DNA from: Porphyromonadaceae bacterium
GTDB lineage: Bacteria; Bacteroidota; Bacteroidia; Bacteroidales; UBA12481
Assembly: GCA_007280905.1 (NCBI GenBank)
Contig: QYQM01000099.1
Location: forward strand, 1-50,359
Length of the DNA stretch: 50,359 nucleotides
Direction of reading: 5' to 3'
Below, piece after piece: positions 1,733 to 14,069 of the stretch. A model generated the notes under the pieces. That model was not told where the DNA came from, ran no database searches, and saw nothing but the letters and a program-made list of their open reading frames with translations. A program made the position numbers and the translations under genes. How positions within the stretch are numbered: the first letter of the stretch is position 1; each line of letters begins with the position of its first letter.

Positions 1733-2938
1733 ATGCGGACATACATTCTTATTTTTATTTTATTGCTGATTCTTTTACCAAAAGGTAAAATCCTGGTTGC
1801 GCAGAATCCCGCTCTCACCACAGAATCAACTATCAGCCTGCTTACATGCGGCCCCGGACCGGAAGTTTACACCTTCTTCGGGCACAGCGCCCTGAGGGTA
1901 ACTGACCCGGTACTGAAGATCGACCGGGTTTATAACTATGGTACTTTCGACTTTAACGTTCCCGATTTTTATGCCCAGTTTCTCAATGGGAAGCTTTATT
2001 ATATGCTCTCAGTTGTAAGGTATCAGGGGTTCGTTCCGGATTATATAAACGAAAAACGATTCATAAAGGAACTCCCTTTGAATATCACGCTCGAGCAAAA
2101 GCGCGAATTATTTAATCTGCTGGAAATCAACTATCTACCAGAAAATCGCCATTATTGGTACGATTTCTTCACCGACAATTGTTCAACCCGGATCCGGGAT
2201 ATTGTTGTGAAGGCCACCGGCGGAAAATACCTCTGGCCTCCCGAGCCAGCCGAACACCTGACCTATCGCCAGTTAATAATCCCCTACATCAGCCTGAATA
2301 ACTGGGCCAAAACCGGTATCCTTCTGATGCTTGCAGCCGGTGCCGACCAGGAGTCTTCACAGGAAGGTTACATGTTTTTACCGGACCATATGCACCGGCT
2401 CTTTTCCCAGGCGAAGCAGGCTGATGGCACACCACTTGGAAAACCTGAAAAAATCCTGTTTATGCCGGATTATCCCAAACCTATCGGAACAGGACTCCTT
2501 CATCCGTATACAATTTTCAGCATCCTTCTTCTGATCTCCTGGTTAATGGTTTTCCTCAGGAAAATGCCGGTCCCGCTCATGAAATTCTTTTTTTTCCTGC
2601 TGTTTCTGATATCCGGAGCCATGGGTTTGTTGTTCAGCTACATGTGGTTCTTCTCAGCCCACCTGGTGTGCCATGCTAATCTCAACCTTGCCTGGGCATT
2701 TCCGCTGAACATTTTTCTTGCGGTTACGATCTGGTTCCCAAAGGCTGGAATGGTCAACAAACTATACAGCAAGGCCATGATCATGCTGATTCTCCTGTTC
2801 CTGGTGACATTCTCCTTCTGGAAACAGAAAATACCTTTTGAGGCCATACTATTCTGCCTTACTCTTCTTCCGGGTTTGTACCGGTTTTCGGGATTTGAAA
2901 TATTCAGAAAAACCAAATCCCAGGATCAGACTAATTAA
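1733..2938 (+). CDS. DUF4105 (Lnb N-terminal periplasmic domain) membrane protein
   Basis: The protein is about 401 residues if started at the ATG at 1733, which opens directly into the hydrophobic signal (MRTYILIFILLLILL). An ATG at 1694 would add 13 polar residues and is less likely. The first ~200 residues match DUF4105: LLTCGPGPEVYTFFGHSALRV, a conserved NYGTFDF, and later YDFFTDNCSTRIRDIV with the family's His, Asp and Cys positions. The C-terminal ~150 residues contain about five hydrophobic helices. The DUF4105 portion should lie in the periplasm, anchored by these helices. The family resembles NlpC/P60-like hydrolases, but no activity is established. Its 3' end overlaps the convergent next gene by 8 bases. 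Confidence 0.85.
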   Translation: MRTYILIFILLLILLPKGKILVAQNPALTTESTISLLTCGPGPEVYTFFGHSALRVTDPVLKIDRVYNYGTFDFNVPDFYAQFLNGKLYYMLSVVRYQGFVPDYINEKRFIKELPLNITLEQKRELFNLLEINYLPENRHYWYDFFTDNCSTRIRDIVVKATGGKYLWPPEPAEHLTYRQLIIPYISLNNWAKTGILLMLAAGADQESSQEGYMFLPDHMHRLFSQAKQADGTPLGKPEKILFMPDYPKPIGTGLLHPYTIFSILLLISWLMVFLRKMPVPLMKFFFFLLFLISGAMGLLFSYMWFFSAHLVCHANLNLAWAFPLNIFLAVTIWFPKAGMVNKLYSKAMIMLILLFLVTFSFWKQKIPFEAILFCLTLLPGLYRFSGFEIFRKTKSQDQTN

Positions 2939-3494
2939 TAACGGTTCCATATTCTACTTTTTGTTTGACGATCACTTCGCGGATTTCACCCAGTATATCT
3001 GCCACCTCTTCACCAATCAGATAAAGGGCTTCAGAATCTGATTTCTGTAGCATGATATCCTGGAAAGCCTTATTAAACAGAGATCTGAAATTCAGCCGGA
3101 TTTCTGTTGTTTTCCAGGCTATCCAGCCAGGCGCTTCAAAATTCCATGATCTGCCGGTATTGACCAGGGAAATCATCATGTCCCTGAAGGTTTCAACGGT
3201 AGCTTCGTTTCCTGGAACCCCTGAATCCTCAGGCTGAATCCCGATAATCAGCTCTTTCTGATTTTCGATCAGCATATTCAGATTCAATCCATTCACTTCG
3301 CCCAATGGTAATCTGATTCCGTAAAAACCAGGAGAAGATGGGTCGTTCTGAAACCGTTCAATCAGTTCATTCATCTTTTTCCGGGAGCAGGAATAACCCA
3401 GATACTCCCAGCCTGGCTCCAATCCTGATTCAATGGCAACTTTCGATAAGGCTTGCCAGAATCTCTTTTCAGCATTTGCGCGTTCTTTTTTCAT
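2931..3494 (-). CDS. Conserved hypothetical cytoplasmic protein
   Basis: I do not recognise this 187-residue protein. It has no signal peptide or membrane segment. It is mixed alpha/beta, with charged N-terminal helices (MKKERANAEKRFWQALSK), a Trp-rich middle (RSWNFEAPGWIAWKT) and a long acidic C-terminal helix ending in REVIVKQKVEYGTVIN. Start at the ATG at 3494. It converges on the DUF4105 gene with an 8-base overlap, so both probably rely on read-through-tolerant termination. Coding is supported by a long open frame with composition like its neighbours. Confidence 0.65.
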   Translation of the reverse strand: MKKERANAEKRFWQALSKVAIESGLEPGWEYLGYSCSRKKMNELIERFQNDPSSPGFYGIRLPLGEVNGLNLNMLIENQKELIIGIQPEDSGVPGNEATVETFRDMMISLVNTGRSWNFEAPGWIAWKTTEIRLNFRSLFNKAFQDIMLQKSDSEALYLIGEEVADILGEIREVIVKQKVEYGTVIN

Positions 3495-3598
3495 CTTTAT
3501 TCATATTTTATGATTCAAAAGAATAACCCGGGAACGTAACCTGTTTACGTTGTGGGTTTTTTTATATTTAGATGCAAGAAATATGTTAAATTGGAAAA

Positions 3599-3971
3599 AT
3601 GGCCCTGAATAAATATGCTGCAATACGCTATCGGATTATAGACGAGTGCATCCGGAGCCGTTCGAAACCTTATCCAACTAAGGAAGAATTAAGATCAGCC
3701 TGCGAAGAAGCACTTTATGGATCTGATCAGGCTTGATGAAGTCCAAACGCAATATATATTATCGAATCCGTTGCATCCATCACAGGAAATCACCGATTTT
3801 GAACCCGGTTCGTATCAGGTTAAACTATTCGTCATTCCCTCGGATGAGTTAAAAATGCAAATCCTCAGCTATGGCGCTAAAGTTGAAGTAGTTAAGCCGG
3901 ATTGGCTCAGGATTGAAATTATGACGGTCCTTGGAAAGGCACTTGAGGGATACCGGCGTAGCTTGGAGTAA
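3599..3971 (+). pseudogene. Core-deleted WYL-domain transcriptional regulator
   Basis: From the ATG at 3599, 45 codons encode the N-terminal winged-helix start typical of Bacteroidota WYL regulators (ALNKYAAIRYRIIDECI, then ELRSACEEALYG), ending at a TGA at 3734-3736. In a different frame, 3718-3971 encodes the WYL C-terminus (QYILSNPLHPSQEI, the SYGAKVEVVKPDWLR block and a terminal helix). About 200 central residues, including the WYL motif, are missing. The join lies in GATCTGATCAG (3721-3731), which reads sensibly in both frames (GSDQ and DLIR), as expected for a deletion between short direct repeats. The stop codon is inside a dispersed repeat. A short peptide could still be made from either part, but not the regulator. 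Confidence 0.8.
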
Positions 3972-4001
3972 CGTGACGAGGTCCCGGCCTGGGATGACAA
4001 G
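3963..4001 (+). repeat. Dispersed REP-like element, TTGGAGTA...GGATGACAAG
   Basis: This stretch matches 39537-39581 over both ends (TTGGAGTARCGT, GAGGTCCC, GGATGACAAG) with a variable GC-rich centre. Its first bases contain the last codons and stop (TAA, 3969-3971) of the WYL remnant. Related fragments occur near 43432 and 49108. It looks like a non-coding palindromic repeat. Confidence 0.7.
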
Positions 4002-4074
4002 TGCTCGAGCCGGCCTTTACGATGCTTGAATCTTCCACTTCAGAATTCAGAACTCTAAATTCGAATCTTTCATG

Positions 4075-4156
4075 TAACTCGCTTTTAAAGTTCACATTGT
4101 CAATGATTTACAAGTTATTCTATTTGGGGCCGTATGGCGACATACTGCGGGACTCT
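4075..4156 (-). repeat. 82-bp dispersed repeat, copy 1
   Basis: The reverse complement of this interval matches 48874-48955 almost end to end, and its first half matches 48654-48705. Shared blocks include GTCCCGCAGTATGT, AAATAGAATAACTTGTA, CATTGACAATGTGAACTTTAAAA and CGAGTTA. Copy 1 carries a small hairpin, GTATG-GCGA-CATAC. It lies 20 bases past the stop of the PKD lipoprotein gene, between two transcription units. Small indels between copies break every reading frame, so it is not coding. Confidence 0.85.
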
Positions 4157-4176
4157 AAATTCTTACTTCCTTCAGT

Positions 4177-6483
4177 TCATTGTATAACAACCAGCCTGGC
4201 TTTGGTATCGGTAAGTCCACCGCTATCCCTGACCTGTACTTTTACAATATAGGTACCTGGTTCACTGAATGTTCTTTTGATAACCTTCACAGTAGTGAAT
4301 TCGGTATCGTATTTATTGTCATTATCCCAATCCCAGCGAACCTCCAATTGATCCAGGCTGTCTTCTGCATCAACACAGATTGAAGCATCAAAGGTGATTT
4401 GGGTTTCAATGGTACCCGATTCAGGAGTGATGGTAAAATCAGCATCAGGCGGAGTATTCGGATTAGTAACCTTTACCTGTTGGGCAAAAGTTGCTCCATA
4501 ACCCTCGGTATCAATAACTTCCAAAACTACTGAATAGATTCCTGCAACGACGAAAGTATGCTGAATGGTTTTTAGCGTCCGAAAATCAGTATCAAAAATC
4601 CCATCATTTTCCCAATCCCACTTAACCTGAAGGCTTTCCAGAGGATCTTCCGGATCCGAACAACCCGATGCATCAAAGTTAAAAGAGGTTTCAGTAGTAC
4701 CGCTTTCCGGATAGACTGTAAAAGTGGCGGTTGGCTTGATATTGGCGGCAGCCACATTGATGATTCGCGTGGTTGAACCCAGGAGGCCCTGAGTATCCAA
4801 AACTTCTAGCTTAACAATATATTTGCCTGGTTCGGTATAAACAAAAAAAGCTGCTTTGATGGTGGACCAGGGTCGATCCCAGATACCGTCACCATCAAAA
4901 TCCCAATGGACTTTCAATTGTGTAATTCCATCTTCAGCATCATAGCAACCCGAAGCATCAAAAATAAAATAATCATTGATCCGGCCGGATTCGGGAGTAA
5001 CGGTAAAGAAAGCAATAGGAGCCGATGATGATAAATTAACCTCCACGGAAGAAACTTTACGAGAGGTCAGGCCTTCCGGGTCTTTAACCTCCAGAATCGA
5101 CTGATAAACGCCAGGCTGAAGAAACTTTTTAAATGCAATCTTCTCTGTACTAAACTCTGTATCGTAGTGGCTATCCCCGTCAAAATCCCATCTGACCATC
5201 AGTTCTGAAGCCGGGCTCTCAATATCCGATGACTTTGATGCATTAAATTCAAAGTTTGTATCAGTAAATCCAGCTGGCGGGTTGATTACAAAAGCAGCCT
5301 TCGGCGGCTGATTTTCCAGCACTCCGTTTTGCGATTCCGAATAGAGTACGGTTTCTGCAGTACTCAACTGAACCGGAACATAATCGCCAAAAACGGGTCC
5401 CGATCGCAACATCGTTCCCCTCGTACTAACTGTCTGTCTGGATTGCCAGTTGGGAATAGTGACATCAGAGTTGACCAAAGCGGAGAAACGGTTTGTGAGT
5501 GATAGTGAAGCCTCACCGCAAAAATAGGGAGTTATCACCTGACTGACGAAAACCTCTTCCAGGTATCCGGAAAATCTTGGTCCATTATAAAGCTGAATAT
5601 CGGCTGATTGAGCCTGATTCGTCTGTACAAACTTCCAGGTTTCCCAATAGTTGTAACTGATTGACAGGTTACCTTTAGACATTCCTGATAGCCTGATCGT
5701 TAAAACAGTGTCTCTTTCAGTAACTGCATGGAACCCTATCCAGGTATCGATTTGATAGGTAACAGGAAAGCCATTGATCATAAATGGACCGTAAACAGAT
5801 TTTTCCACCAGGAGGCTATCAGCAGCATCCATGGCACTTCCTGCTTTTATGACCAATTCCGCAGCAAGATCAAGCGAATAATTAAAGTCGAGCCGGCAAC
5901 GGTCAAACCAGGGATCAGATCCCTGACCCGACAAAATAAACTGACCAACCGAAGATTTTGAATAAAACTTGCCAGCGGTAAACTGCACCTGCAGGCTTTT
6001 CGACTGCCAAAAATCATCAAACAAAAACAATCCATCAAGTCCCAGCGTATCTGTATTCCAGGAGTGGGCATCGGTCCTGGTTCCGGATTTCAAAATTCCT
6101 TTGCTGATGGTATCCTGAATTGAAATGCTCCTGAATATCTGATCCAATCCGGATTTATCCAGCTGGAAAACCATTCTGGAGCCGGTTAATGTGGCTGAAA
6201 CAACTTTCCCGAAGACTCCATCACTTCCAGGATAATAGACAATATCGCCGGCTTTAATCTGGGGTGGTGTACCAATCAGGTCAAATCTCATCTGTCCGTT
6301 AATTCGAACAGGATTTATAAACACCAATGAATCAAGCTTAACAACATTGTTTTGATAGGAGGATACCTTAAGATCAGCATCTGCCGCATGATCCACAGCC
6401 GGCTCCCTTTCACAACCTGAAATCAGGAGAAGCAAAACCAGTAATCTGGTTAAAACACGAGTATATATAAGGATCCTTAGCAT
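4177..6483 (-). CDS. Surface or periplasmic lipoprotein with four C-terminal PKD domains
   Basis: The 768-residue protein starts with a lipoprotein signal, lipobox LISGC with Cys24. Residues ~40-370 form a beta-rich region I do not recognise. Four tandem PKD domains follow at about 394-482, 489-577, 584-672 and 678-768. Each begins with a P-x-A-x-F-T/V-x-P pattern, has an F(N/D)AS block, WDFDGD or WDWDND, and ends in V-x-V. These Ig-like modules typically bind glycans or proteins outside the cell. No type IX secretion C-terminal domain was seen. It is the last gene of a four-gene operon, 12 bases after the small lipoprotein gene. It may be the exposed element of the complex suggested by its partners. 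Confidence 0.85.
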   Translation of the reverse strand: MLRILIYTRVLTRLLVLLLLISGCEREPAVDHAADADLKVSSYQNNVVKLDSLVFINPVRINGQMRFDLIGTPPQIKAGDIVYYPGSDGVFGKVVSATLTGSRMVFQLDKSGLDQIFRSISIQDTISKGILKSGTRTDAHSWNTDTLGLDGLFLFDDFWQSKSLQVQFTAGKFYSKSSVGQFILSGQGSDPWFDRCRLDFNYSLDLAAELVIKAGSAMDAADSLLVEKSVYGPFMINGFPVTYQIDTWIGFHAVTERDTVLTIRLSGMSKGNLSISYNYWETWKFVQTNQAQSADIQLYNGPRFSGYLEEVFVSQVITPYFCGEASLSLTNRFSALVNSDVTIPNWQSRQTVSTRGTMLRSGPVFGDYVPVQLSTAETVLYSESQNGVLENQPPKAAFVINPPAGFTDTNFEFNASKSSDIESPASELMVRWDFDGDSHYDTEFSTEKIAFKKFLQPGVYQSILEVKDPEGLTSRKVSSVEVNLSSSAPIAFFTVTPESGRINDYFIFDASGCYDAEDGITQLKVHWDFDGDGIWDRPWSTIKAAFFVYTEPGKYIVKLEVLDTQGLLGSTTRIINVAAANIKPTATFTVYPESGTTETSFNFDASGCSDPEDPLESLQVKWDWENDGIFDTDFRTLKTIQHTFVVAGIYSVVLEVIDTEGYGATFAQQVKVTNPNTPPDADFTITPESGTIETQITFDASICVDAEDSLDQLEVRWDWDNDNKYDTEFTTVKVIKRTFSEPGTYIVKVQVRDSGGLTDTKARLVVIQ

Positions 6484-6495
6484 ATCTCCCCAAAA

Positions 6496-6864
6496 CTATC
6501 TTACGTGTACAACAATCTTGTTTCTTTGGTTCACCTGAAGTGGTTCCGATGTAGAGACCTCTCCCACACTATTGTCCTTCCCGTCAAATCTCACATAAAC
6601 ATAATAGGTAATTTCTTTCAGATCAACGAAAACCACCTTTCCATCTGAGTCTGTCCGGCGCCATACCTGTATCGGATTTATTCGGTTATTCCACTCATCG
6701 GCACTATCAAACAATGCAACATAAGCACCAGAAATGTTTGCACCATTTTCGTCAAGAACTTGTATCTCAAGCTGCGGTAACGTGTCGACCTTAGTACAAC
6801 TATAAAGCACAAATGCCATATATAATGCGATTGATCCTAATATGCGAAATCTTCTGCTGGTCAT
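6496..6864 (-). CDS. Small lipoprotein with carboxypeptidase-regulatory/CnaB-like fold
   Basis: This 122-residue protein has a lipoprotein-type N-terminus, with Cys24 in VLYSCTK. The mature part reads as a single beta-sandwich of the carboxypeptidase-regulatory-like/CnaB type: LEIQVLDENGANISGAYVALFDS, then TDSDGKVVFVDLKEITYYVYVRFDG. Its ATG follows the TAA of the barrel gene directly, which implies translational coupling. The PKD lipoprotein gene starts 12 bases downstream. Its role is unknown. The arrangement suggests an adaptor between the barrel and the large lipoprotein at the outer membrane. Confidence 0.8.
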   Translation of the reverse strand: MTSRRFRILGSIALYMAFVLYSCTKVDTLPQLEIQVLDENGANISGAYVALFDSADEWNNRINPIQVWRRTDSDGKVVFVDLKEITYYVYVRFDGKDNSVGEVSTSEPLQVNQRNKIVVHVR

Positions 6865-8112
6865 TTAGTTTTGCTCCTTATTTAACCGCATAGAAACACC
6901 CAGATTCACGGTGAAAGCCTGGTTAACTGTTTTCCCCGGGTCACCCCACAGTGGGTTATATTGGCCCAGGTATTTAGAGGTAACGAAATCCGTATGATTA
7001 TTGTTGTCCAAACCCGACAATCCTTGTCGCATGCTTCCGCCTATCAGGATACCCAGGCGATTATTAAACCTGTACTTAATTGCTATTGTTCCCTGTAGTC
7101 CAAAATTTAACCGGTTCATCAGACTTATCCAGTCGGCATCAGTGATAATGTTTACCATAGTCGCACCCGTATTGGTGTTCACTGCCGATGAAGTCATACT
7201 CTCAAAGACCCTGATTCCAAGGGCTAGTCCAAGATCCGCACTGAATTCCCATCGGTTTGACGATTTGGTCCGGCAAGATAAAAAGACAGGTACTTCAACA
7301 AACCACAGATCATTATCAATGCGAACATCCCTGAAGTTTGGGTCAAAGCCGCCAAATGCATCAAACTTATCAAGGCTGACGCTGCCGGAATATTGCGAAA
7401 ATTGGGCACCCGATCCGATTCCCCAATGATCAGCGAAGTAATAAGAATAGAAAATCCCTCCCGTATAGCCGGTTCCCTTTCTCAAACCCAATCGTTCATC
7501 AGAACCAAGGGCTGAATTAACAAATCCTGATAGTGCAGGAGAAACAGAGGCAGTTATAAAGTTCTGGCCTTTGGGCGGCAAGTCCATCCCATAAAAAGCA
7601 AAGCTGCCGGGACTATTGTTGTTATAAAAAAACGCGATCTGGAATATGATCCTCTGGTTGGATGAAAAAACTTTACCACCTGAAATGCCATTCAATGACC
7701 GGTTGATGCGTATTCTGATAATGTAGCGGTTATTACGGTCATACTTAGGCTGGCCAATCGTCAGCCTGGCCAAATCCAGATTAATGGTAAGCCCGTCGGG
7801 AAATAGATCACTTACCTTAATAATATACTCTTCAATGCTGATTTTAGTTGATTGCGATTGCCACTCCAGGTCGTTAACTACCTGTACTTTAGGATTTGCG
7901 AAGAGGTGTACGAATTCCCGCTCAACCAATGGATCGGTTTGATTATTCAACTTATTATGAAGGATTTGATATTTTGAAAGAATAGCAATAATCGAATCTC
8001 TCAATGCAGGTTTATCCCAAACCGGGCTTTCCTGAGCTGAAGCAATCTGCCCTGCCCATAAGAACAGAATCCAGACAATACTGCTGAATTTGAAATTGTT
8101 GATCAACCTCAT
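6865..8112 (-). CDS. Outer-membrane beta-barrel protein with N-terminal periplasmic domain
   Basis: Starting at the ATG at 8112 gives 415 residues with a clean signal peptide (MRLINNFKFSSIVWILFLWA, cleaved around ASAQ). Residues ~20-175 form a mixed domain with DLFPDGLTINLDLARLTIG and an NRYIIRIRINRSLNG strand. From ~190 the sequence alternates amphipathic strands (GGIFYSYYFADHWGIGSGAQF, LWFVEVPVFLSCR, FGLQGTIAIKYRF, AFTVNLGVSMRLN), typical of an 8-stranded PorT/OmpA-like barrel. It is the second gene of the envelope operon, 56 bases after the membrane-anchored MPN protein and abutting the small lipoprotein. It is probably the outer-membrane anchor of the system. Confidence 0.8.
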   Translation of the reverse strand: MRLINNFKFSSIVWILFLWAGQIASAQESPVWDKPALRDSIIAILSKYQILHNKLNNQTDPLVEREFVHLFANPKVQVVNDLEWQSQSTKISIEEYIIKVSDLFPDGLTINLDLARLTIGQPKYDRNNRYIIRIRINRSLNGISGGKVFSSNQRIIFQIAFFYNNNSPGSFAFYGMDLPPKGQNFITASVSPALSGFVNSALGSDERLGLRKGTGYTGGIFYSYYFADHWGIGSGAQFSQYSGSVSLDKFDAFGGFDPNFRDVRIDNDLWFVEVPVFLSCRTKSSNRWEFSADLGLALGIRVFESMTSSAVNTNTGATMVNIITDADWISLMNRLNFGLQGTIAIKYRFNNRLGILIGGSMRQGLSGLDNNNHTDFVTSKYLGQYNPLWGDPGKTVNQAFTVNLGVSMRLNKEQN

Positions 8113-8168
8113 GAAATAAAACCACATTGTTCGACACAGATAAAGGTATGGATCGCAAAAATAGGAAT

Positions 8169-10739
8169 TTAGCGGGAGAGAAGACTCTTTAGTGAATATT
8201 CTTCTGTTTCGATGGTGCTATTGTTCATTTCGAGCGAATGCTTCCGGGTGAAGATCCGTAATTCTCCCGTGGATGGATTCATCAGGCACGAAATCTGATA
8301 GGCTTCCCTGAATGATTGTTCATGATAGTCAACCGCATTTTGCAGGTAATTCATCACATCCACATTGGCCTGCCCCCACCATCCGATGAGTGAAAGTCCG
8401 GGTAAATCACGGGGAGTCAATTCATTGCTCAATTCGATAAAACGGTCTACGAAAACTTCGTATTCATTTGTCTTTCCCTCGGCAATTGGCTGAACTACTG
8501 CTGTACCGTAGAGATAACCAACCACCTGAAAAGTATCTTTTGGAATCGCCTGATGGGCTGCAGCAGCAGTTATTTCACCTGCTACGGAAAGATCAAAATT
8601 AACGGCTGTAACGACAGAATCTCCCCAGGTATTATTCAAGGCAATCCGGGAATAGTCTTTGTCCTTTTTATATATTCCTTCAGGATCATTTTTAATGGAA
8701 CTCGTCGGATTCAGTGCAAACCGGTAAAGTTCATCCCATTTTACAAAAGCAGCCGGATCGGGCATCGGATCAAGATAACCAGTCTTTCTACGCAGGAAAC
8801 CGGCTCCCTGAAGGAAATCGGAACCAGGATTAAGCAGGATACCGATCTGCCATTTTTCTTTAAAAAATGATCGGTGGATTTTCATTAATCCCTCCGGTAT
8901 TTCCATGCTACTGTCGGCACTCGAAGTAAACCAACCAATCAACCTGTATTTTTTATTCTCCCTGACCAATTCATCCAGTTCATCGATCAGGTCAGCTCTG
9001 GCACTGTTGTCATTGGTGATTGAAGATCTAAGGTAATGAGAATCGCATGCCTTTTCTATGAAAATTTCGCTCTTCACAGTTCCAGGCAGTTTATATTGAT
9101 TACCAAACAAATAACCGCCAAAATCTCCACCCTTTCTTTCCAGCAATGCACCATGTACCAAATGGTAAACGGATTTTATTGAGGAGGTGTGATAATGTAT
9201 TTTGCCAACAACAGACTCAGGTATGGTTACCTCATAATTAAAAGTGAAATACACGTTGGGAAGCTCGTCGGAAAAAATCCCGTTTACCGGGGATTTTCCT
9301 TGCGGGCTCCTGGAATTTCCGCGTTCCATAAAGGTTAATCGTTCCTTAAGGATTTGTTTATTGCGGGTTGCACTCCAAATTGCCGATGCAAAAACAAGTA
9401 TGAGAACAGCGAGCAAGCCGGTCCATAAAAATCGGTTTGACATATACCAGGGTGTTTCCAACTGATCAGTCACTATCGCGGCTACGTCATTGTCAACCTG
9501 ATCAATAGCGGATTGCAGGTCATTTTGACCTTTAAGAAATGTGGCATGTAGATTCACGATCTCACTCACTGGTTCTAATACATTAATATCAATGCGATAG
9601 TTGTTCCATATATTCTCATGGGCCAGACTGAGATTCAGAAAAACCTTTTTGATTAATCCGTGACTTAAGATTAGTGAATCCACCCTTGGGCCATCCAGGT
9701 GATGGTCTTTCGCATCGGCTATTAACGTACTAATTTCCAGCGCAATCGAATTCTGATCTTTGGTTATCAGGTTTAAGGAATCTACCTGATTCTGAACAAC
9801 AGGTTCAATGCGAATCCGAATAAGATTCCTTAAACTGTCATTTTTTCGCAGGCGGGTCAAAAAATCGGAACCGTCGGCCAGGTTCGACTGCGAAAGCTGT
9901 GACTTTAAATAAGCAGAACGCAAATCAAAAACAGCATCATTCAGGTGTTTATAAAGCTCCTGGTACAGCTGAAAAGTATCGGAAGGCAAACTATCCGGAT
10001 TGAGTAAGGCTCTTTCATTAATGATGTTTGCCGAAAGTGCTTCAAGATCCTGGAGGAAATTTGGCCGATTGAGTTCACCGATGGATTTACCCTCCTCGAA
10101 ACCTTTAACTTTTAGCTGTAACTTTTGGTAATTGTCCGCCACATTGCGCATTGCCGCTAAATTGTTGATGGCATCCTTTATCTTTCGTTTATTATCTGCT
10201 GCAATTTCTGTTTCGACAGATGGCTTGCGGTAGTTTACCTGGAAGTCCATCTTCAGGTCGTTAGTACCATTAAGATCAATCAATTCCGATCTTCCAGACT
10301 CATATAATTTCCGGGTCAGAGCATATTGAAACCGCGCAATAAGTTTAACTGCACCTTCGTAGGTATTCAATATCTGCAGATTAAGTTTCCCTGAGGATTG
10401 AAAGAAAAGGTTGAAGGGTTTTTTCTGATCAAATGAGGTGCACCTGAACTGTTGAGCAGGCAGCATGTCAAAATCATATTTTGAAAGACAAAGAAATGGC
10501 ATCTGGCTGTTTTCGATGATCGGTTTCCCATCCTGGTCATACCAGATTACAGTAAAATCAAGTTGGTAAAGCCCGTCTCCCGGTTGCTGCAGGAGGTTTA
10601 CGGTGATATTTCCCTCCATCTTTTTTTCAGACCGGTTAAGCCACGTAAAAGAAAATGTTTTCTCCTGAGCAACCACATTTGCTAACATGGAGACAATCAG
10701 GCATATGCTGACCAGATACTTCTTAGAAAAAAATTGCAT
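8169..10739 (-). CDS. Inner-membrane protein with large periplasmic region and two degenerate MPN/JAMM-like domains
   Basis: The ATG at 10739 gives 856 residues; a TTG at 10748 lies 9 bases upstream. A signal peptide covers 1-25. Residues 26-170 are a beta domain, and ~175-425 are mostly helical. One membrane helix is at ~437-456, so the rest should be cytoplasmic. Two repeats follow, at ~511-652 and ~708-833. They share GGYLFG / VGYLYG, then RLIGWF / SLIGWW, an HRSFF or HEQSF helix, and QIGILLNP / QISCLMNP ending in F-x-R-K. This order matches the MPN/JAMM fold, but the metal-binding H-x-H is replaced (TSS; GQA), so neither repeat should be an active isopeptidase. First gene of the envelope operon. 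MPN assignment rests on motif reading only. Confidence 0.65.
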   Translation of the reverse strand: MQFFSKKYLVSICLIVSMLANVVAQEKTFSFTWLNRSEKKMEGNITVNLLQQPGDGLYQLDFTVIWYDQDGKPIIENSQMPFLCLSKYDFDMLPAQQFRCTSFDQKKPFNLFFQSSGKLNLQILNTYEGAVKLIARFQYALTRKLYESGRSELIDLNGTNDLKMDFQVNYRKPSVETEIAADNKRKIKDAINNLAAMRNVADNYQKLQLKVKGFEEGKSIGELNRPNFLQDLEALSANIINERALLNPDSLPSDTFQLYQELYKHLNDAVFDLRSAYLKSQLSQSNLADGSDFLTRLRKNDSLRNLIRIRIEPVVQNQVDSLNLITKDQNSIALEISTLIADAKDHHLDGPRVDSLILSHGLIKKVFLNLSLAHENIWNNYRIDINVLEPVSEIVNLHATFLKGQNDLQSAIDQVDNDVAAIVTDQLETPWYMSNRFLWTGLLAVLILVFASAIWSATRNKQILKERLTFMERGNSRSPQGKSPVNGIFSDELPNVYFTFNYEVTIPESVVGKIHYHTSSIKSVYHLVHGALLERKGGDFGGYLFGNQYKLPGTVKSEIFIEKACDSHYLRSSITNDNSARADLIDELDELVRENKKYRLIGWFTSSADSSMEIPEGLMKIHRSFFKEKWQIGILLNPGSDFLQGAGFLRRKTGYLDPMPDPAAFVKWDELYRFALNPTSSIKNDPEGIYKKDKDYSRIALNNTWGDSVVTAVNFDLSVAGEITAAAAHQAIPKDTFQVVGYLYGTAVVQPIAEGKTNEYEVFVDRFIELSNELTPRDLPGLSLIGWWGQANVDVMNYLQNAVDYHEQSFREAYQISCLMNPSTGELRIFTRKHSLEMNNSTIETEEYSLKSLLSR

Positions 10740-10842
10740 ATAGCTCAATACATGTAAGTTACGAAAGGTTTCCGATGTTTCCTTTGCGTAACAAAAGTAT
10801 TAAAATTTACTGCGGATTCGTCAAAAATTTGGGCAATAGCAA

Positions 10843-11124
10843 TCAGCATCCAAGTTCGATCAACTTTTCATGAGCAGCGGTGATGTTCTTGACAAGGTCT
10901 CTTTTAATTCCCAGGAAATAGGGGCGTGATTTTCCGTGGTTTCCTAAATCGAAATGGTTGATGCGGTCTAACAAATCTCCTTTCACAATAATGATCTCAT
11001 TGATAATTTCCTCGTAAGCTGAGAAATCCTTTTCAGGATGTTCTTCCATACAAGCATAACAATCCAGGATAACATCAGTAATCAGGTAATCGATATCCTT
11101 TTTAAGGTTTTTCTTACTGGCCAT
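10843..11124 (-). CDS. Small conserved hypothetical helical protein
   Basis: This 93-residue protein is rich in charged helices (KKNLKKDIDYLITDVILDCYACMEEHPEKDF, INEIIIVKGDLLDRI, LVKNITAAHEKLIELGC). It has no signal or membrane segment. Start at the ATG at 11124, preceded by an AT-rich stretch. I recognise the general type, short Bacteroidota proteins of unknown role, but no function. It stands alone between the envelope operon and acylphosphatase, both on the same strand. Confidence 0.7.
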   Translation of the reverse strand: MASKKNLKKDIDYLITDVILDCYACMEEHPEKDFSAYEEIINEIIIVKGDLLDRINHFDLGNHGKSRPYFLGIKRDLVKNITAAHEKLIELGC

Positions 11125-11207
11125 ATTTAGTTTTCAAAAGTTTTCATATTTAAAAATAGGAATTTTTTGTTTAAAAACAATAGTTGAACAAAAAATCTCC
11201 CTACTTA

Positions 11208-11489
11208 TCAGCGTATTTGAAAATTTTTGAAATCCATGACCGGATGGAAGGAGTATTCAACCGATTCCACAATTGCTCTCGGGGGGCCTGTTTTACACCA
11301 TTCAACAAGATTCCCGACAGAATCCGGGCTACCCTGTGCCTCAATGTATACGGACTCATCAGGCAAGTTTTTTACGTAACCAGTCAGCTTGAGATTCTTA
11401 GCCATCAGAAGTGTCGAATAACGGTATCCTACACCCTGAACCCGGCCAATGACCTTAATTTTTGCCCTGCAATCAGACTCCATATCCAT
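11208..11489 (-). CDS. acyP: Acylphosphatase
   Basis: The 93-residue protein matches acylphosphatase over its full length; the enzyme hydrolyses carboxyl-phosphate bonds such as acetyl or carbamoyl phosphate. The catalytic Arg is in GRVQGVGYR (residues ~14-22) and the catalytic Asn in GYVKNLPDESVYIEAQG (~36-52). An ATG 6 bases inside (11483) is an alternative start. It lies 28 bases after the upstream secreted protein gene on the same strand and may be co-transcribed, although no functional link is evident. Confidence 0.92.
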   Translation of the reverse strand: MDMESDCRAKIKVIGRVQGVGYRYSTLLMAKNLKLTGYVKNLPDESVYIEAQGSPDSVGNLVEWCKTGPPRAIVESVEYSFHPVMDFKNFQIR

Positions 11490-11517
11490 CCATTAACACC
11501 GGACCAGGCCTCCGCGG

Positions 11518-12453
11518 CTAACGATCTGTTTTACTCCGGATTGAATCCTCCGGATTAGCTGGAGCGGCGACCATTTTTTCCGGATCACTTTTATCCTGAT
11601 CAGCCTCAATCAAAACGCGAACAAAATAGACTCCATCAAGTGATACCGTTATACGACACCAGAGAACGGCCTTGTTTTGCGGTAAGGTAAATAGCAATTC
11701 TTTCGGTCGGCTCTTGATAATTTTACCGCCTGCCTTAACACAGGCGCGGTAATAACTCTCAAGAACTTCAACAGATGATATCTGCTTATCGACCTGGTTC
11801 TTACTATTCATTACTTCAATTTTCAGATCCCAGAAGGGTCCCATAACCTTTTGCCGGAACAAGGTATCCTTAACATTCCAGCTAAACTCCTGGTGATCAT
11901 ATTTACTATGTTGAATCCGGGTAATCACCGATTGAGGCAGGTAGTTAATACGCGGCGGCAAGGCGACTGAGTCGACAAATTTTTCATAAACGGCAACCGG
12001 TTTGGTATCGAACTGAATTTTGTTTACAAAGGGAACTTCCCTGATCAGCCTCAACCGATATGCCTTATCGCTTGAAAGCACCAGTCGTCCCCATACGTTA
12101 CCGGCATCTGAAGGAATTACAAAATGGACCTGGAGCGTATCCTGATAAAACACACTACCCTTATTTTCAACAATCTGGTTCACAACAAATTCCTTAAATT
12201 TCCTTTTCTGCCGGAAGACAGAATCATAGGTGTAAGAAATCTCCCAATAATGGCCCATGGCCTGACGGTTGTTTTTTCCGGCTTCATCCCTGATATCCAG
12301 GTAATTGAAATTGTTATACTTCGACACTTTACCCGGTATTCCCTTGTAGGATTTAATATTGGGTGGTTCGGGAAAGGTCTCTGTCTGGGAAAAACCATTG
12401 ATTGCAGGTGTCAGAAAGAAGGAGAAGGCCAAAAAGAATATTTTATTTTTCAT
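11518..12453 (-). CDS. Secreted protein with two related domains, function unknown
   Basis: The ATG at 12453 opens into a signal peptide (MKNKIFFLAFSFFLTPAINGFSQ), so it is preferred over the ATG at 12504. The mature protein is about 290 residues. Two segments look related: one around YWEISYTYDSVFRQKRKFKEFVVNQ, leading to IPSDAGNVWGRLVLSSDKAYRLRLIRE; the other around FWDLKIEVMNSKNQVDKQISSVEVLES, leading to PQNKAVLWCRITVSLDGVYFVRVLIE. The pattern (aromatic strand, helix, then a W-G/C-x-hydrophobic strand and an RLI/RVLIE strand) resembles the small domain preceding OmpA modules in Bacteroidota. No OmpA module is present. Periplasmic or outer-membrane associated by inference. Confidence 0.65.
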   Translation of the reverse strand: MKNKIFFLAFSFFLTPAINGFSQTETFPEPPNIKSYKGIPGKVSKYNNFNYLDIRDEAGKNNRQAMGHYWEISYTYDSVFRQKRKFKEFVVNQIVENKGSVFYQDTLQVHFVIPSDAGNVWGRLVLSSDKAYRLRLIREVPFVNKIQFDTKPVAVYEKFVDSVALPPRINYLPQSVITRIQHSKYDHQEFSWNVKDTLFRQKVMGPFWDLKIEVMNSKNQVDKQISSVEVLESYYRACVKAGGKIIKSRPKELLFTLPQNKAVLWCRITVSLDGVYFVRVLIEADQDKSDPEKMVAAPANPEDSIRSKTDR

Positions 12454-12463
12454 GGTTGTTCTG

Positions 12464-12790
12464 TTAAACTTTTCGAAGAATTTTGGTCTGGATTTCACCT
12501 CCATTCAGGAGATATAACAGCGGAAGAGGGCGGTCAATGTTTTCCCGGAAAGATGGTTTGGCCTGCCATGGGGTAACCGAAAGAACGTTGGCGAGATCCA
12601 TCCAGAATTGCAGCCGGGCCGCCGGGAGATTCCAGGTCATGTGCAGATGGTTGGCAGGGGCATAGTGCTTATACTCAGCCATCGAGGCAAAGTCGGGCGT
12701 AATAAAGGTATGAGGCCAGGTGGTAAATACACCAATCATGGGTAACGCCTTGGTTGTTTCGCTATTAGATGAGATACATCGGGCTTCCAT
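12464..12790 (-). pseudogene. Probable 3' remnant of an L-fucose-isomerase-like gene
   Basis: From the ATG at 12790 the frame encodes 108 residues: MEARCISSNSETTKALPMIGVF, then TTWPHTFI, APANHLHMTWNLPAARLQFWMDLANVL and a short tail. The TWPH...NHLHM pattern recalls the C-terminal part of fucose/arabinose-isomerase-like proteins, which are normally about 450-500 residues. No catalytic N-terminal region is present. A TATATTTTT stretch lies about 30 bases upstream, as if promoter and start codon had been joined to the last hundred codons. It sits 10 bases before the secreted protein gene. Alternatives are a genuine small protein, or a longer start at 12847. Confidence 0.4.
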
Positions 12791-12854
12791 AAACTGATTC
12801 TCTTTTTTTAAATTTACCGCTAAAAATATACATTTTCGGCAATCCATTTATCAT

Positions 12855-13511
12855 ATGATCCGACAGGTCATCCTAACCGAAGATGGTTCACATACCATTT
12901 TTGTCCCGGAAATGGGCGAACACTATCATTCCATTCACGGTGCAATCCAGGAGAGCCGCCATATTTTTATAAAAAACGGCTATCATTTAATGCAGGCAGA
13001 TTCAATCTCAATCCTTGAAATCGGTTTCGGGACCGGTCTGAATGCCCTTCTTACTTTGTTGGAGTCAACCACTGATAACAAGACTATTAATTATGAAACC
13101 TGGGAAGCGTTTCCCCTGTCAGTAGAGGAATCCCGGCAGCTCAACTATCCGGAAATCCTGAAATCCGGGCAGGATATTTTCAATGAACTTCATAAGGCGG
13201 TATGGGGAATTGAGGTACCAATAACCTCCTTATTTGTACTGAAAAAAGTTTGGGATGATATTCGTAACTTTAATTCTGACCGGATATTCGATCTGGTCTA
13301 TTTCGATGCCTTCGGGCCTGATTATCAGTCGGAATTGTGGGATACCGCGGTTTTTAGAAAAATAGGTGCATGCATGAAAAATAATTCCAGACTGGTCACC
13401 TATTCTGCCAAAGGACAGGTGCGGCGAAATCTCAGGGAAGCCGGATTCATCGTTGAGAAAGCTCCGGGACCACCGGGTAAAAGGGAGATTACCGTTGCGA
13501 TTAAAATGTAA
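12855..13511 (+). CDS. mnmD: tRNA (5-methylaminomethyl-2-thiouridylate) methyltransferase, MnmD type
   Basis: The 218-residue protein corresponds to the methyltransferase half of MnmC, which makes the last methylation of mnm5s2U at tRNA wobble position 34 using SAM. The SAM-binding motif is [15 protein letters not shown] (residues ~55-69), and the family block [16 protein letters not shown] lies near 145-160. The FAD-dependent MnmC2 domain is absent, as usual for stand-alone MnmD in Bacteroidota. It starts at the ATG at 12855 and is divergent from the isomerase-like remnant. The next gene begins 3 bases after its stop, so the two are probably co-transcribed. Confidence 0.88.
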
Positions 13512-13514
13512 TTT

Positions 13515-14069
13515 ATGCTAACTAAAAATTCCACATCAGCATTTCTGGCCGGATTGGCAGTCATCATAGGGTTGGCATTTTTTCCGATGCCGGTTTCCGG
13601 TCAGATTGAGAATCACCTGATCCTTAAAAAACATGGCTATTTGAATAAGCTCCACTTCCTCACAGGTGATCCAATCACATTTATCCTGGAAGGCAATAAA
13701 TATCCGGAAGAATCTTATATACAAGGTATTGGCACCGATTTCATCCTAGTTTCCGGGCAGGAGATCCCGATTAATAAAATTACTTTCCTGATCCGGTATC
13801 GGACTGGTTTCAATTTCGTGGGTTCCGGAAAAGCCCTCATGATCGCTTCACCGGGTTACCTGGTCATTGGAGCGATCAATGCGCTTTTTCAAGGTGCAAG
13901 TCCCGTTCCGACAGTTTCAAATCTTATTGTAGCCGGTGTATTTTTAACCGCGGGTGCGATTATCCCGGGATTTCAGGTTCGGAAATATCCTATCGGAAAA
14001 AAGTTTACGCTGAAAATTGTGCAATCCGATCCGCCCAGTTTTCCACGAAAGGCACCAATTGATTATTGA
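13515..14069 (+). CDS. Exported or membrane hypothetical protein
   Basis: This 184-residue protein has a signal-like N-terminus ([22 protein letters not shown]). A small beta domain follows ([47 protein letters not shown]), of a kind common in Bacteroidota hypotheticals where a short strand pair precedes an EIPI/IxxI motif. Two hydrophobic stretches follow at about residues 108-126 and 137-152. It begins 3 bases after mnmD and its end overlaps the convergent permease gene by 7 bases. No function can be assigned. Confidence 0.6.

Follow-up and report, generated by a model that had tools for sequence, protein, structure and literature searches.

Four adjacent genes whose products are predicted to occupy every layer of a bacterial envelope, with a eukaryote-like fold at the cytoplasmic end, raise the question of what such a set might do and where it came from. 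The genes, here called A to D, lie on the minus strand of a 50,359-nucleotide stretch of DNA from a Porphyromonadaceae bacterium (QYQM01000099.1; henceforth the window), which represents one entire contig of a 4.39 Mb genome that is 99.3% complete. The original prediction, made from the letters and their translations, described an MPN-like membrane protein, an outer-membrane barrel and two lipoproteins, and tentatively suggested a signalling or tethering complex. MPN domains form pairs of one active and one dead member at the core of the COP9 signalosome and of the proteasome lid; non-catalytic members such as Rpn8, CSN6 and KIAA0157 act as scaffold partners. Here, we combine profile searches, structure modelling and gene neighborhood comparisons to trace the origin of the window's MPN protein and to weigh possible functions of the gene set.

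A conserved four-gene operon

Recomputed open reading frames placed all four genes in the same direction between positions 10739 and 4177, with intergenic gaps of 56, 0 and 12 bases, as the original prediction had it (Table 1). Gene A is single-copy in the genome. A protein search with A across 60 related genomes, the window's own among them, returned matches in all 11 other family members searched, including Bacteroidetes bacterium GWF2_49_14, and one weak match in a genome of the same order. The full A-B-C-D order was present in nine of the twelve family genomes (the window and eight others), and in the remaining three (G006, G011, G009) a contig end truncates the set. Within the complete-order loci, a contig end cuts A in G001, G002, G003 and G005 and D in G005, and D is split into two reading frames in G001. 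Because many flanking genes are also common to these relatives, synteny alone is not enough to set A to D apart; the gaps, which range from -4 to 91 bases across relatives, tell more. The recurrence of gene order with near-zero gaps goes beyond a chance arrangement and confirms that A to D form one conserved operon.

Beyond the family the set dissolves. Among 295 genomes of the order, full-length A was found in family members only, and other elements turned up separately: pairs of B with the periplasmic beta-sandwich of A (AN), C-like genes and a single D-like gene. The expectation that the four genes travel together thus holds within the family wherever contigs show the locus and fails in part outside it. 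Upstream of A, the promoter-like site is the sole match within the window to a consensus that we take to be of Bacteroidota type, with 1.8 matches expected by chance, and the conserved 93-aa gene beyond it is probably a unit separate from A to D.

Table 1. Positions of the operon genes, their predicted domains and upstream elements in the window.
Feature	Position	Strand	Remarks
Conserved 93-aa gene	10843..11124	-	upstream of A in most relatives with a contig reaching there
Promoter-like site, Bacteroidota type	10792..10825	-	52 nt ahead of gene A start
Gene A	8169..10739	-	856 aa; ATG start; TTG at 10748 as alternative start
AN, periplasmic beta-sandwich of A	10667-10230	-	full-length model, conservation
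Helical bundle of A	10214-9435	-	
Transmembrane segment of A	about 9443-9342	-	hydropathy
MPN1 of A	9194-8745	-	MPN fold
MPN2 of A	8657-8265	-	MPN fold
Conserved C-terminal tail of A	8264-8172	-	LEMNNSTIETEE in the window
Gene B	6865..8112	-	415 aa; ATG start at 8112; alternative start at 8127
BN, periplasmic domain of B	8037-7579	-	recurs elsewhere in profile search
Outer-membrane beta-barrel of B	7578-6868	-	OMP_b-brl_2
Gene C	6496..6864	-	122 aa; small lipoprotein, carboxypeptidase-regulatory-like fold
Gene D	4177..6483	-	768 aa; lipoprotein
DN, N-terminal domain of D	6411-5329	-	
PKD repeats of D, four	5328-4180	-	PKD_4, E 8.6e-30

Two further genes lie near the operon in the window. At 1694-2935 is a gene for an Lnb-like periplasmic and transmembrane protein (Lnb_N, 5TMH_Lnb), which relatives also carry close to their copy of the operon. 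A WYL-domain regulator at 3599-3971 is a remnant: its counterparts measure 328-350 aa in five of the six relatives in which they are seen whole, and what is left aligns with 45 residues at the N-terminus and 78 at the C-terminus of the L032 protein, the middle being gone. This reflects either a real deletion or an assembly fault.

Twin MPN domains without a zinc site

Hydropathy analysis of A gave a signal peptide and one transmembrane segment (hydropathy window at residues 433-451). A model of the full-length protein comprises a beta-sandwich at residues 25-170, long helices at residues 179-467 and two mixed domains thereafter. A Foldseek comparison of this model with the PDB returned nothing at E<=0.001; its MPN part was poorly modelled, which explains why the fold was missed, and the cytoplasmic part folded alone, with the window sequence and family rows as input, resolved it (mean pLDDT 76.5). 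This second model yielded 111 PDB matches at E<=1e-3, the best 50 of which were MPN-domain proteins or complexes containing them. At the top was the BRCC36-KIAA0157 complex (1.1e-7), followed by eIF3, Rpn11, Rpn8 and CSN6 among others. In structural comparisons MPN1 reached VIA Z scores of up to 13.5 (an EMC chain, then an Rpn11 homologue), and MPN2, taken from the full-length model, scored VIA Z 11.3 with an rmsd of 2.3 over 118 residues. MPN1 and MPN2 are homologues of one another (hhalign probability 97, E 9e-11). The MPN-like call on A was therefore borne out by structure, with two such domains in place of the one proposed. Other searches were less informative: an A1 profile run against PDB sequences gave weak matches confined to the helical part (best E 0.02), and AN resembled appendage-like beta-sandwiches at Z of about 7.5-8.5, an arrangement so common that we assigned it to no family.

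Canonical JAMM/MPN+ deubiquitinases (JAB, Prok-JAB) coordinate zinc through a motif of E, HxH, S and D. A shares their fold, but the HxH and the Asp are absent from all 11 family sequences that cover the site, i.e., ten aligned rows and G005; G003 was left out of the count as its sequence does not cover it. In the ten aligned rows the HxH columns hold T, S, A, V or C and the Asp column L or F, and the E column shows D in seven, E in two and S in one. No HxH occurs in MPN2 of A either. The three outside rows in the same alignment (L033, L034, L070) keep E, H, H, S and D, and the motif is intact in all six outside relatives (these three and L080, L081, L082). The simplest reading of these sequences is that the zinc site was lost on the stem of the family. 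The MPN pair and the decay of its zinc site are well supported, and A is very probably an inner-membrane protein that carries two dead MPN domains in the cytoplasm. It shares the MPN fold in both domains with the eukaryotic pairs Rpn11/Rpn8, CSN5/CSN6 and BRCC36/KIAA0157, and with EMC subunits. Unlike the eukaryotic pairs, A is bacterial, lacks the zinc site in both domains, and joins them in one chain attached to a transmembrane segment and periplasmic domains.

Active membrane relatives in ubiquitin-like cassettes

Outside the family, the closest relatives of A's cytoplasmic part are active-type membrane proteins. Across the 295 genomes of the order, a profile of A matched four family genomes and, through its MPN part, G027 (E 3.3e-16) and G056 (4.5e-5). 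The other seven matching genomes comprised three matched in AN and four matched in the helical part (G287, G129, G271, G156); we took the latter four as chance. Searching 395 genomes of the phylum with a cytoplasmic profile brought in G366, G460 and G482. The 867-aa protein of G027 combines a signal peptide, a periplasmic part, helices, a transmembrane segment, an intact JAMM motif and a further C-terminal domain; it matches JAB in Pfam (1.7e-8) and RPN11 in the PDB (1.8e-5), and its MPN domain aligns with MPN1 of A at an hhalign probability of 97.7.

Four of these relatives sit in ubiquitin-like cassettes. Near the G027 gene we found ThiF (E1), an E2-like protein (UQ_con, 25.1 bits against a cut-off of 27), vWA and YukD-like proteins, SrfB and Virul_Fac, and two genes after it lies a gene for a protein with the periplasmic domain of B (BN; i-E 1.7e-6 with the B profile, 7.3e-6 with the BN profile). 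The G056 equivalent (L070 3-19001) belongs to a type VI cluster with TssC, TssD, VgrG-like and TssF proteins and a weak TssK-type match, in which weak YukD-like and weak E2-like proteins, ThiF, vWA, the membrane JAMM protein and a barrel protein are embedded. In G366 and G460, JAMM genes accompany ThiF, E2 (above the cut-off), YukD-like and vWA-FHA genes, and a PAAR_motif protein is encoded near the G460 gene (L080). The four E2-like proteins share an HPNI motif and a Cys. The ubiquitin-like assignments rest on YukD matches below the Pfam cut-off, and RING-like matches of the vWA proteins stayed under the cut-off in L033 and L070, while L080 and L081 gave none at E<=0.01.

Several loci showed further details. 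In L033 (1548-18543) and L034 (4939-5793), the ThiF, E2-like, JAMM and vWA genes adjoin SrfB/Virul_Fac, and a second JAMM protein has no evident transmembrane segment. L080 (4550-14173) and L081 (6934-14028) encode YukD/ubiquitin-like proteins of 92-94 aa next to a membrane JAMM protein with an intact HTHPGHG. The G482 protein (L082 8820-9767) has an intact HSHP, a hydrophobic stretch read by eye and a LysM-like C-terminal match and, judged by eye, represents another membrane-linked JAMM layout.

A signal peptide (read by eye in the cassette proteins), a periplasmic part, a transmembrane segment and a cytoplasmic MPN domain are common to A and the cassette proteins of G027, G056, G366 and G460. 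The shared layout is only partly shown, since AN has no convincing match in the N-termini of the active proteins (hhalign probability 13.7 for L070, 5.8 for L033 and 0.3 for L080). A second MPN domain is weak in the G027 protein (HMMER i-E 2.3e-4, hhalign probability 16) and was unsupported in the alignment comparison for L070. We consider it highly likely that A is related to these membrane JAMM proteases of Bacteroidota, and by its sequence it looks like such a relative minus the zinc site and the cassette. Operons of bacterial E1, E2 and JAB proteins have been described (PMC1779556), as have CBASS Cap2-Cap3 (PMC10097602) and BilABCD (as told in PMC11354881). A carries a homologous JAB/MPN domain, and its nearest outside relatives occur in E1/E2-type cassettes; it differs from the operons described there in lacking the JAMM residues and any E1, E2 or ubiquitin-like partner in its operon. 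Our literature search, which covered sources other than preprints, found only PMC1779556 to bear on such operons when type VI systems or Bacteroidetes were combined with ubiquitin-like or JAB proteins, and a type VI cluster with an embedded ubiquitin-like set, as in L070, was the subject of no paper listed; for MPN/JAMM proteins in a periplasmic context, none was relevant by title among the matches listed.

The MPN pair could in principle still cleave a ubiquitin-like protein with unusual residues. Its fold is preserved, and most rows share H..FF..KWQ in a well-conserved stretch that follows the motif. Against such activity stand the missing HxH and Asp and the missing conjugation enzymes. PF00179 exceeded its cut-off in none of the twelve family genomes, a weak negative because the E2-like proteins of L033 and L070 also score below it (those of L080 and L081 above it). 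We therefore made a dedicated E2 profile, which found no family member across the twelve genomes (best E 0.195), while its positives were the same four genomes that had supplied its rows (E<=7.3e-102). Prok-JAB likewise exceeded its cut-off in none of the twelve, with one match below it elsewhere in G008, and nine proteins scanned from window positions 2934-14066, a subset of the reading frames there, gave no ThiF or ubiquitin-like Pfam match. Active deconjugation by A is thus highly improbable.

The type VI genes around some active cousins (TssC, TssD, VgrG-like and TssF by L070, PAAR_motif near L080) raise another alternative, in which A to D form the membrane complex of a T6SSiii or other contractile system located apart from its sheath genes. 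TssC is missing from the window's genome and was found in only two of the twelve family genomes (G005, G009), and the lack of this sheath gene already disfavors the assignment. In the passages of PMC10781749 on the T6SSiii membrane complex, TssN is given five transmembrane helices, TssQ, TssO and TssP are N-anchored, TssP has PKD-like domains, and the lipoprotein TssR contains a vWA-like domain. Both sets are multigene trans-envelope assemblies of Bacteroidota, and the PKD-like TssP recalls D. The topologies differ, however: A has one transmembrane segment besides its signal peptide, B, C and D have none internally by hydropathy, and the beta-barrel and MPN domains of A to D have no counterpart in those passages. 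We rate membership of a contractile system as very unlikely. Among other known systems, no TonB-dependent barrel or SusD domain was matched in A to D by Pfam, none of the four proteins matched a PADLOC anti-phage model at E<=0.01, and NCBIfam, queried with the Gld, Spr and Por families in mind, returned nothing at E<=1 when searched with A, B and C. GldL gave only a weak match (E 0.33), in the helical bundle of A. The earlier failure to place the set in a known system stands for type VI and Sus, whereas some tie to type IX may exist.

Outer-membrane partner, lipoproteins and a possible role

B matched OMP_b-brl_2 above the cut-off (E 7.5e-12) and has an N-terminal domain without a Pfam name. 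Its signal peptide, like the cleavage sites and lipoboxes throughout the operon, was read by eye. The putative lipobox Cys is invariant in C (Cys23, 10/10 rows) and in D (Cys24, 7/7 rows). Together with the signal peptide and transmembrane segment of A, these features agree with the predicted distribution of the four products over all envelope layers.

AN and BN recur as neighbors. A profile of AN found 17 places in 14 of the 295 genomes, four in the family and 13 outside it, and a B homologue lies beside or near AN at ten of these 13, a count that takes in G141 (weak BN) and G268 (barrel-only match at a contig edge). The misses are G264 twice, its contigs running out upstream, and G045, with no B in 14 kb. 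A profile of B alone matched 51 of the 295 genomes, many of the matches being barrel-only and generic. In a Pfam scan of 11 AN proteins (ten of the 13 outside places and L140, found through B), the partner domain was Peptidase_C14 in ten and OmpA in one. The same AN and BN domains thus occur in neighboring genes of other Bacteroidota, with a caspase-like or OmpA domain where A has its transmembrane segment and MPN pair. Among the papers listed by our search, none dealt with AN-caspase and BN-barrel pairs by title and abstract. The recurrence of AN and BN, a matter of linkage rather than contact, is our chief ground for holding it likely that A and B pair physically in the periplasm.

C matched CarboxypepD_reg just below the cut-off (29.5 versus 32.3 bits; E 9e-7) and has weak relatives in 38 of the 295 genomes; with so many relatives elsewhere, its tie to A and B rests on synteny in one family. 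DN was found in five of the 295 genomes, the single outsider being a lone PKD and Fib_succ_major protein. In the window's family C and D look like a surface part that, judging by gene order, may have been joined to an A-B part.

Which end of the complex is under constraint bears on its role. Within A, mean pairwise identity is highest in the C-terminal tail (62%) and MPN1 (49%), followed by MPN2 (39%), the transmembrane segment (31%), AN (30%) and the helical bundle (21%), which argues for a conserved partner on the inside. The PKD part of D (58%) and C (53%) equal the MPN domains in conservation, however, so that constraint alone fails to single out the cytoplasmic end; DN reaches 27% and B 41 and 38%, each gene being represented by its own set of rows. 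In the mechanism that we find most attractive, though at slightly less than even chances, A to D form a trans-envelope sensor or scaffold in which a dead MPN relative of the cassette proteases is coupled through B to surface lipoproteins. B would anchor A to the outer membrane, where C and the PKD lipoprotein D, if exposed as assumed, would extend the complex or decorate it, probably on the cell surface. A binding event or strain felt by D or B could then pass through AN, the helical bundle and the transmembrane segment to the pseudo-MPN pair, which might be the scaffold on which a cytoplasmic partner docks, by way of the pair's conserved faces and the tail LEMNNSTIETEE. Surface sensing with cytoplasmic docking as the actual function is a more tentative proposal, with the odds somewhat against it.

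The conservation of C and D leaves room for an export or assembly unit, in which A, B and C transport D to the surface, fold it or anchor it there, the MPN pair is a mere cytoplasmic anchor and no signal passes inward. Of the operon's surface-type proteins D is the largest, and in two of four outside loci examined (L160, L161) a C homologue lies directly upstream of a long lipoprotein-like gene, as judged by eye. The strongest constraint within A falls on MPN1 and the C-terminal tail instead of the periplasmic part, and AN-B pairs elsewhere have no D match in the loci examined, which makes an export role unlikely in our view. A general mechanical tether between inner and outer membrane, serving envelope integrity and having no dedicated ligand, would fit the long helical bundle, the barrel, the PKD repeats and the one relative with AN fused to OmpA; a plain tether needs no conserved twin MPN domains with a conserved tail in the cytoplasm, and we judge this reading improbable.

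The sensor or scaffold reading can be extended to a broader and more speculative one, which we hold to be rather unlikely: AN and the BN-barrel protein might constitute a modular receptor platform with swappable outputs, i.e., a caspase-like protease, an OmpA domain or a membrane-linked MPN pair, the last acting here as a bacterial receptor of pseudo-deubiquitinase type that relays signals from the surface inward. If the proposed role of A is true, a bacterial membrane fusion of two dead MPN domains would show scaffold use of this fold outside eukaryotes and suggest that an old apparatus for protein tagging was put to new use as a scaffold across the envelope. With E1, E2-like and vWA proteins encoded next to its active cousins, it would also connect ubiquitin-like systems with the envelope of bacteria, and a physical AN-BN pairing would offer a receptor module to test for the caspase-like proteins of Bacteroidota. 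BN also occurs in another arrangement: L141 (180-9628), L142 (1442-11587) and L144 (6101-17999) encode proteins of ~640 aa with two BN copies, adjoining a giant protein (>2000 aa) and two small secreted-looking proteins.
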